Assembly (NCBI GenBank): GCA_902623785.1
Contig: CACNVG010000001.1
Span: forward strand, 200,714-264,713
DNA: 64,000 nucleotides
Direction of reading: 5' to 3'
Source: an uncultured Pelagibacteraceae bacterium
Lineage (GTDB): Bacteria; Pseudomonadota; Alphaproteobacteria; Pelagibacterales; Pelagibacteraceae
The notes beneath the pieces were generated by a model. It ran no database searches, had not been told where the DNA came from, and worked only from the letters and a program-made list of their open reading frames with translations. A program made the position numbers and the translations under genes. Below, piece after piece: positions 6,074 through 6,352 of this stretch. How positions within the stretch are numbered: position 1 is the first letter of the stretch; each line of letters starts with the position of its first letter.

Positions 6074-6120
6074 TTGAATAGAATAAAGTTTTAAGTTTAC
6101 TCATTTTATTATATAATCAA

Positions 6121-6180
6121 TGTGTCCTGATTTAGAAAATAACTCTACTTGCTGGGACATTAAATACAACGCTAAAGGAG
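6121..6180 (+). promoter_or_regulatory. SAM-II/SAM-V-like riboswitch candidate
   Basis: P1 stem TGTCCT (6123-6128) pairs with GGGACA (6154-6159) with one G-U pair. The loop begins GATTTA (6129-6134) and ends TTGC (6149-6152); after P1 comes TTAAAT and then GCTAAAGGAG (6171-6180), which contains the ribosome-binding site. These elements, in this order, match the SAM-II crystal-structure RNA as I remember it (GAUUUA, UUGC, UAAAU, GCUAAA) and the marine SAM-V class, where pseudoknot formation hides the Shine-Dalgarno when SAM is bound. Loop length differs from SAM-II. The controlled gene is the 55-codon ORF starting at 6185. Not tested against an Rfam model. Confidence 0.62.
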
Positions 6181-6184
6181 AAAA

Positions 6185-6352
6185 ATGAAAATAATAATAC
6201 AATCAATTAAAAGCTATTTTAAATCAAAAAAGGATAAAGGGTTAGAACCAGTATTCTTTGAGAAAATAGGCGACCAAAAAACATCTAGAGACGAGATGCG
6301 TGATAATTTAATAAAAGCTTTGAAAAAGAATGGCTGGACTATAAAAAAATAA
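6185..6352 (+). CDS. Small 55-aa basic protein of unknown function, riboswitch-linked
   Basis: I do not recognise this protein. ATG at 6185 has an AAGGAG site 4 bases upstream, which is the last element of the putative SAM riboswitch. The 55-residue product is Lys-rich, begins MKIIIQSIKSYFKSKKDKG, has a middle EPVFFEKIGD and a charged, probably helical C-terminal half ending KNGWTIKK. No signal peptide, Cys or clear membrane span is seen. It sits between ald and a dimethylglycine dehydrogenase-like gene; the latter appears to have its own promoter. Coding status is supported by the RBS, the open frame and the controlled leader. A role in sulfur or methyl-group status is inference only. Confidence 0.65.
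   Translation: MKIIIQSIKSYFKSKKDKGLEPVFFEKIGDQKTSRDEMRDNLIKALKKNGWTIKK

Follow-up and report, generated by a model that had tools for sequence, protein, structure and literature searches.

SAM riboswitches are regulators of methionine and SAM genes. Two classes, SAM-II and SAM-V, come closest to the element described here. In the available part of the account by Huang and Lilley (PMC6061858), SAM-II is mostly transcriptional, with the metX SAM-II as a rare translational case, and SAM-V is translational, with its Shine-Dalgarno sequence in P2a and a 3-bp P3. In the SAM-V crystal structure given there, U47 pairs with the adenine of SAM, the U9-A48-U20 triple faces the sulfonium, and A50 binds the aminoacyl end; A18 is the pairing partner of A50 and is not described in that part of the paper as touching SAM. 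A SAM-II/SAM-V tandem of bhmT occurs in the same bacterial group as our locus and, in the available parts of PMC5069961 and PMC2704228, has an arrangement comparable to that of the metY elements described below. The available part of another study (PMC6429828) lists, for SAR11 strain HIMB5, one SAM-II riboswitch that had not been annotated, with its gene not given, and part of the present finding may be recorded there. SAM-II is not mentioned in the available part of PMC2211319. No description of the cassette reported here was found among the top matches of the mostly open literature that we searched.

We analyzed a stretch of 64,000 nucleotides from an uncultured Pelagibacteraceae bacterium (contig CACNVG010000001.1, positions 200,714 to 264,713), referred to as the window. 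It carries a SAM-II-like aptamer directly upstream of a 55-codon open reading frame (ORF) (Table 1). P1, GATTTA, CTCT, TTGC, and GCTAAAGGAG stand in pseudoknot order at 6124-6180, followed by the ATG at 6185, and 4 bases separate GGAG from this ATG. The ordered pattern of elements had one match in the window and none in 100 dinucleotide shuffles. We read this RNA-ORF cassette, with a probability of roughly 0.7, as a translational SAM-II-like OFF switch by which a small accessory protein, probably acting by itself, would be made at low SAM. The comparisons below show a conserved aptamer, Shine-Dalgarno pairing, protein-level selection, RNA-ORF linkage, and a variable location. The cassette represents a SAM-II-like variant tied to uncharacterized accessory microproteins at shifting sites in abundant ocean bacteria, the same RNA serving unrelated ORFs, and it supplies a concrete set of small proteins as candidates for methyl-donor stress.

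Table 1. Coordinates of the aptamer, its elements, and the small ORF in the window
Feature	Position	Strand	Evidence
TATAAT, likely -10 box	6112..6117	+	majority sequence upstream of GTCC (-12 to -7) in 64 loci
SAM-II-like pseudoknot aptamer with built-in Shine-Dalgarno sequence	6124..6180	+	SAM_alpha 21.8 bits (subthreshold); aptamer in 64/64 loci
P1 5' strand, GTCCT	6124..6128	+	partner 6154-6158; P1 covaries in wider set
GATTTA, putative triplex third strand	6129..6134	+	comparison with SAM-V (available part of PMC6061858)
CTCT, P2b 5' strand, partner of Shine-Dalgarno GGAG	6143..6146	+	standard pairs in 39/39 distinct leaders
TTGC, P2 core 5' strand	6149..6152	+	invariant in 43 leaders
P1 3' strand, GGGAC	6154..6158	+	P1 pairing in leaders; covariation in wider set
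GCTAAA, P2 core 3' strand; matches SAM-V contacts U47, A48, A50	6171..6176	+	invariant in 43 leaders (contacts: available part of PMC6061858)
GGAG, Shine-Dalgarno sequence and P2b 3' strand	6177..6180	+	leader alignment, pairing, sequence
ORF, 55 codons, uncharacterized small Lys-rich protein (family a)	6185..6352	+	63 related loci; median dN/dS 0.11

We compared the aptamer with the Rfam models. At gathering thresholds, the whole window yielded tRNA only. Below them, SAM_alpha (SAM-II, RF00521) was the top match, at 6114-6196 (21.8 bits, E = 0.0042 for 201 bases against 4,227 families; gathering score, 36 bits), and SAM_V (RF01826) was absent at the aptamer up to an E value of 10. The aptamer was also the top SAM_alpha match of its own assembly (906 kb, 75% complete), where the runner-up reached 16.5 bits and SAM_V matches lay elsewhere, at no more than 20.2 bits. 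A lax scan of 10 further cassette loci listed SAM_alpha in 4, at 21.6 to 30.1 bits, and did not list it in 6. Five loci with methionine genes (L116, L117, L118, L121, and L122) likewise had no SAM_alpha match at the gathering score, and thus this cutoff separates little in these genomes. In one of them, a SAM-II-like element (L117:5001-5051) stands before a gene taken by eye to be metF. The first-pass annotation had called the element SAM-II/SAM-V-like; the SAM-II half of that claim stands, as a subthreshold match with the elements in order, and SAM-V identity was rejected for want of a model match.

The likeness to SAM-II lies in the P1/P2 pseudoknot and in the order of its conserved loop elements, UGAUUU, UUGC, UUAAA, and GCUAAA. 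The window element differs from SAM-II in its score, in a C, not A, before UUGC, in a P2b that carries the Shine-Dalgarno sequence, and in its target, an uncharacterized microprotein. The pseudoknot and SAM contacts resemble those of SAM-V, but the 12 bases between P1 and GCTAAA show no stem by eye where SAM-V has its P3 (available part of PMC6061858). Unlike the bhmT tandem, the window has a single aptamer. SAM_V matches follow both of the metY elements that we scanned (L118 and L122). As the first-pass annotation had proposed, the last element of the pseudoknot is the Shine-Dalgarno sequence of the small ORF: P2 contains GGAG, and its pairing with CTCT, seen in all 39 distinct leaders, places the ribosome binding site within an aptamer helix, as expected of a translational riboswitch.

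To describe the conservation of the RNA, we searched with the 55-amino-acid (aa) protein and obtained 63 loci, of which 62 bear the title Pelagibacteraceae or Pelagibacter and 1 that of a gammaproteobacterium. The aptamer lay directly 5' of the ORF in all 63, as in the window. Conservation across the 64 loci starts at GTCC, and because the TATAAT majority bases precede it at the spacing given in Table 1, transcription probably starts at the aptamer. An alignment of 43 leaders (39 distinct) had 97.4% of its P1 cells and 100% of its P2 cells paired. ATTTA of GATTTA was invariant, and the leading G was present in 41 of 43 leaders. Covariation among these close relatives did not exceed that of column shuffles, because the set is too similar; P2 hardly varies.

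A covariance model built solely from leaders of family-a genes, R1, was run over 297 Pelagibacteraceae genomes. R1 gave the window aptamer 87.5 bits. At an E value of 0.01, it matched in 48 of the 297 genomes, 38 of which exceeded 50 bits (40 strong matches). In the 10 genomes with weak matches only, the match preceded metF (1), metY (4), or metX (1), all genes read by eye, or was chance-like (4); a weak match before bhmT, also read by eye, occurred in a genome that holds a strong match as well. The matches at L120 and L124-L126, together with three others of low score, were taken as chance-like and not counted as cassettes. Over 54 R1 matches (46 distinct rows), P1 covaried, with two-sided changes in 29 cells and none of 500 shuffles reaching this, in an alignment that is fitted to P1 and retains the chance-like matches as rows. 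Among the 98 distinct Shine-Dalgarno-type sites alone, double changes were seen at three P1 pairs, in the variants GTCCT/GGGAC, GTCCG/CGGAC, GTCTG/CAGAC, GTCTT/GAGAC, GTCTT/AAGAC, and ATCCG/CGGAT, and some sites had a U-U mismatch at the last P1 pair. The compensatory changes to which the first-pass annotation had looked are thus clear for P1 over the wider set and not above shuffles in close relatives; its appeal to the Rfam models had the same divided outcome, with a subthreshold SAM-II match and none at the gathering score.

We then considered the ligand site, where SAM is the probable ligand. The bases aligned to the direct contacts and the U-A-U triple of SAM-V were invariant in the 43 leaders. 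The base equivalent to A18, for which SAM-II calls for A, was C in 97 of the 98 sites and A in 1. This C marks a subclass and makes the ligand somewhat less certain. A related adenosyl compound in place of SAM would agree with a C where SAM-V and the elements of the methionine genes have A, but the retention of the direct SAM-contact bases and of the sulfonium-facing triple, together with the description of A18 as the partner of A50 and not a SAM contact in the available part of PMC6061858, makes such a ligand unlikely.

The 55-codon ORF encodes 13 Lys and no Cys. Its relatives had a median dN/dS of 0.11 (1,917 usable of 2,013 pairs, first 50 codons), and pN/pS was 0.18 in frame compared to 1.10 and 2.18 in the shifted frames. 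These values indicate that the family-a ORF is under protein-level selection, and the protein conservation on which the first-pass annotation had staked its small gene proved strong. One homologue is shorter (L050, 50 aa). An AlphaFold2 model of the 55-aa protein predicted two helices (pLDDT 86.3, pTM 0.51), with no fold match in the PDB (best E value, 3.4). Searches of Pfam, PHROGs, and NCBIfam for a known family gave only weak matches. The best of these (E = 0.0025), found in 19 of 46 members, was an uncharacterized PHROG; DUF7028, HicA, XisH, and others matched more weakly. Six small proteins, four of them from the other kinds of ORF, had no Pfam match up to an E value of 1. The reading as a phage gene was rejected: none of 301 candidate stretches in viral_contigs encoded relatives, and a DNA pattern had no matches there.

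RNA and ORF were closely linked. A family-a protein profile matched in 38 of the 297 genomes. All 36 strong ORF matches (34 genomes) lay on the same strand as a strong R1 match and no more than 105 bases 3' of it; 6 further matches were weak. The strong-R1 genomes outside those 34 were G009, G023, and G063, in which an unrelated ORF of 57 to 66 aa (family b) stands behind the same RNA, and G048, in which the contig ends. Family b occurred in 3 of 197 genomes, always at this RNA. At the 98 distinct sites, the first ORF belonged to family a in 91, to family b in 3, to another short kind in 3, and to yet another in 1. Of the three sites with another short ORF first, L105 keeps an intact family-a ORF, which that short ORF overlaps; at L146, the family-a reading is divided over different frames; and L115 is cut. 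In a second copy in G351 (L157:2501-2557, minus strand), UUGC and GCUAAA are changed and the ORF is truncated, so that aptamer and ORF have decayed together.

The location of the cassette varied. The 64 loci had 51 combinations of nearest upstream and downstream ORFs (of at least 80 aa), a left neighbor recurring with differing right neighbors and vice versa, and the next ORF lay on the opposite strand in 43. In the window, a DMGDH-like gene starts 37 bases past the stop of the small ORF, and the first-pass annotation had read a metabolic context from it. This context was not borne out: a DMGDH-like gene lies behind the cassette in 4 of the 64 loci and before it in 1, and only in the window does alanine dehydrogenase stand nearest upstream. 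An operon with either gene was rejected, as the neighborhood is not conserved. No methionine gene recurred beside the cassette among the nearest-neighbor clusters that we read. Movement by an adjacent integrase was also rejected, since Phage_integrase was present in 23 of the 26 cassette genomes searched for it and within 10 kb of the cassette only in G063 (2.7 kb away, split); at L011, an integrase match at the cutoff (27.3 versus 27.1 bits) lies 458 bases downstream. No mechanism of movement was found, and in a search for empty sites before the DMGDH gene, matches started mostly near or inside the gene and set no cassette boundary. Among 56 loci scanned for tRNA genes, tRNA-Met lay 87 to 147 bases downstream of the ORF in 12 (L009-L012, L016, L020, L026, L028, L045, L055, L064, and L065), 10 of them with repeated GGTCCA motifs in between, and tmRNA lay about 40 bases downstream in 3. 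One cassette (L066:3940-4183) comes from a contig with the title uncultured gammaproteobacterium, where an AFG1-like ATPase gene lies on one side and genes with Schlafen/AlbA_2 and MutS-I domains form a cluster on the other; this reflects either transfer between classes or a mislabeled cell.

To describe the neighborhood further, we screened the 57 genomes known to us to carry a strong match (38 from the 297-genome sample and 19 more) for the C5 DNA methylase family. A C5 methyltransferase was present in 26, in 21 of these within 10 kb of the cassette and in 16 within 3 kb. In the closest cases, the gene is divergent from the cassette, at 50, 71, and 93 bases. In the 297-genome sample, the family occurred in 15 of 38 cassette genomes versus 35 of 259 others (odds ratio, 4.2; P = 0.0003), the P values of this association being overstated, as the genomes are related, their completeness is uneven, and both kinds of genes favor variable regions. 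The association was uneven: in the window's subtype (ORF ending in GWT..K, assigned by eye), 1 of 22 cassettes had a C5 methylase no more than 10 kb away, compared to 20 of 41 others. In 4 of the 64 unselected loci, a C5 methyltransferase lay within 4 kb per side (expected, about 0.1, calculated with 62 C5 methyltransferase genes from a gene list of 64 rows). The large flanking proteins that we examined were chosen by size and are not an unbiased sample. Among the 35 cassette-free genomes that have the C5 family, 19 supplied 20 methylase regions, and none of these held a convincing element (best E value, 0.043). N6 methylases turned up in 2 of 36 genomes, in one case at a distance of 1.5 kb from a cassette. 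A Z1 protein was encoded in 10 of 20 fetched cassette regions, and HATPase, DUF4420, or AIPR proteins were encoded in some. PADLOC identified MzaC, MzaD, and MzaE at L219, where an MZA system with a C5 methyltransferase adjoins a sister cassette; our own profiles for the MZA and C5 methyltransferase families gave no match in the window. To our knowledge, the MZA defense system as described contains no such microprotein. The link to C5 methyltransferases and defense holds for sister cassettes and islands and does not amount to a fixed partnership; the cassette was not a fixed part of a methyltransferase-nuclease locus.

According to our model, a single gene forms a transcription unit of some 230 bases, which would start at or just before the aptamer. 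When SAM is plentiful, the pseudoknot would fold and P2b (CTCT/GGAG) would hide the Shine-Dalgarno sequence, so that no 55-aa protein is made; when SAM falls, the pseudoknot would open and the protein would be translated. We infer for the protein a role in the response to methyl-donor shortage, outside the neighboring DMGDH or alanine dehydrogenase genes. Since the cassette is accessory and present at many SAR11 sites, the protein probably acts by itself and not with neighboring genes. It is possible, if doubtful, that it is instead, as the first-pass annotation had suggested in speaking of methionine or sulfur balance, a helper of methionine or sulfur metabolism induced at low SAM, such as a regulator of a methionine-cycle enzyme. 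SAM-II-like control, the R1 matches at methionine genes, the lack of Cys, and the rise of HTCC1062 genes behind SAM riboswitches under sulfur limitation (available part of PMC5069961) all agree with such a helper, but not its patchiness (strong matches in 38 of 297 family genomes), its variable site with no recurring methionine gene among the clusters read, or the unrelated ORFs that take the same place behind the RNA.

That exchange of ORFs behind a constant RNA, families a and b and others, would suit a guard, in which a constant sensor drives exchangeable effectors: loss of SAM, through starvation or through phage SAM destruction that blunts restriction, would release a small effector that halts growth or the phage. 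Phage T3 SAMase is described as a counter-defense against restriction in the available part of PMC7877911. The proximity of C5 methyltransferases in 21 of 26 genomes, their enrichment, and the Mza matches beside one cassette also favor this guard, but the window's subtype (1 of 22) and the unselected loci (4 of 64) seldom lie near a C5 gene, no cassette was found in viral_contigs and no toxin fold or family among the proteins, and the co-location may merely reflect shared variable regions. We consider it unlikely, and we say the same of the cassette as a riboswitch-gated defense unit of SAR11 islands with C5 methyltransferases and MZA-like systems, fired by phage- or starvation-induced SAM loss; the window copy would then be a settled, solitary member. 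If this defense link were true, an RNA metabolite sensor would guard the SAM pool that restriction systems need. Alternatively, at SAM levels too low for host methylation, the small protein could inhibit a linked nuclease and prevent self-cutting. The closely spaced divergent methyltransferase genes and the Z1 genes are in line with a brake of this type. It appears rather improbable, however, as 31 of the 57 cassette genomes (many incomplete), the window's assembly included, show no C5 methyltransferase, and the methyltransferase regions of cassette-free genomes lack a convincing element.

Two further proteins were noted. A 112-aa protein with no Pfam or PHROG match (L216:7765-8100) recurs beside cassettes, often divergently, and was present in 10 of 20 cassette regions versus 4 of 20 cassette-free methyltransferase regions. 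Next to HATPase/Z1 genes lies the gene of a protein of some 860 aa (L223:7597-10194 and L225:7529-10108), and its L223 copy has matches to RNA polymerase alpha C-terminal, helix-hairpin-helix, and sigma-70 region 4 domains.
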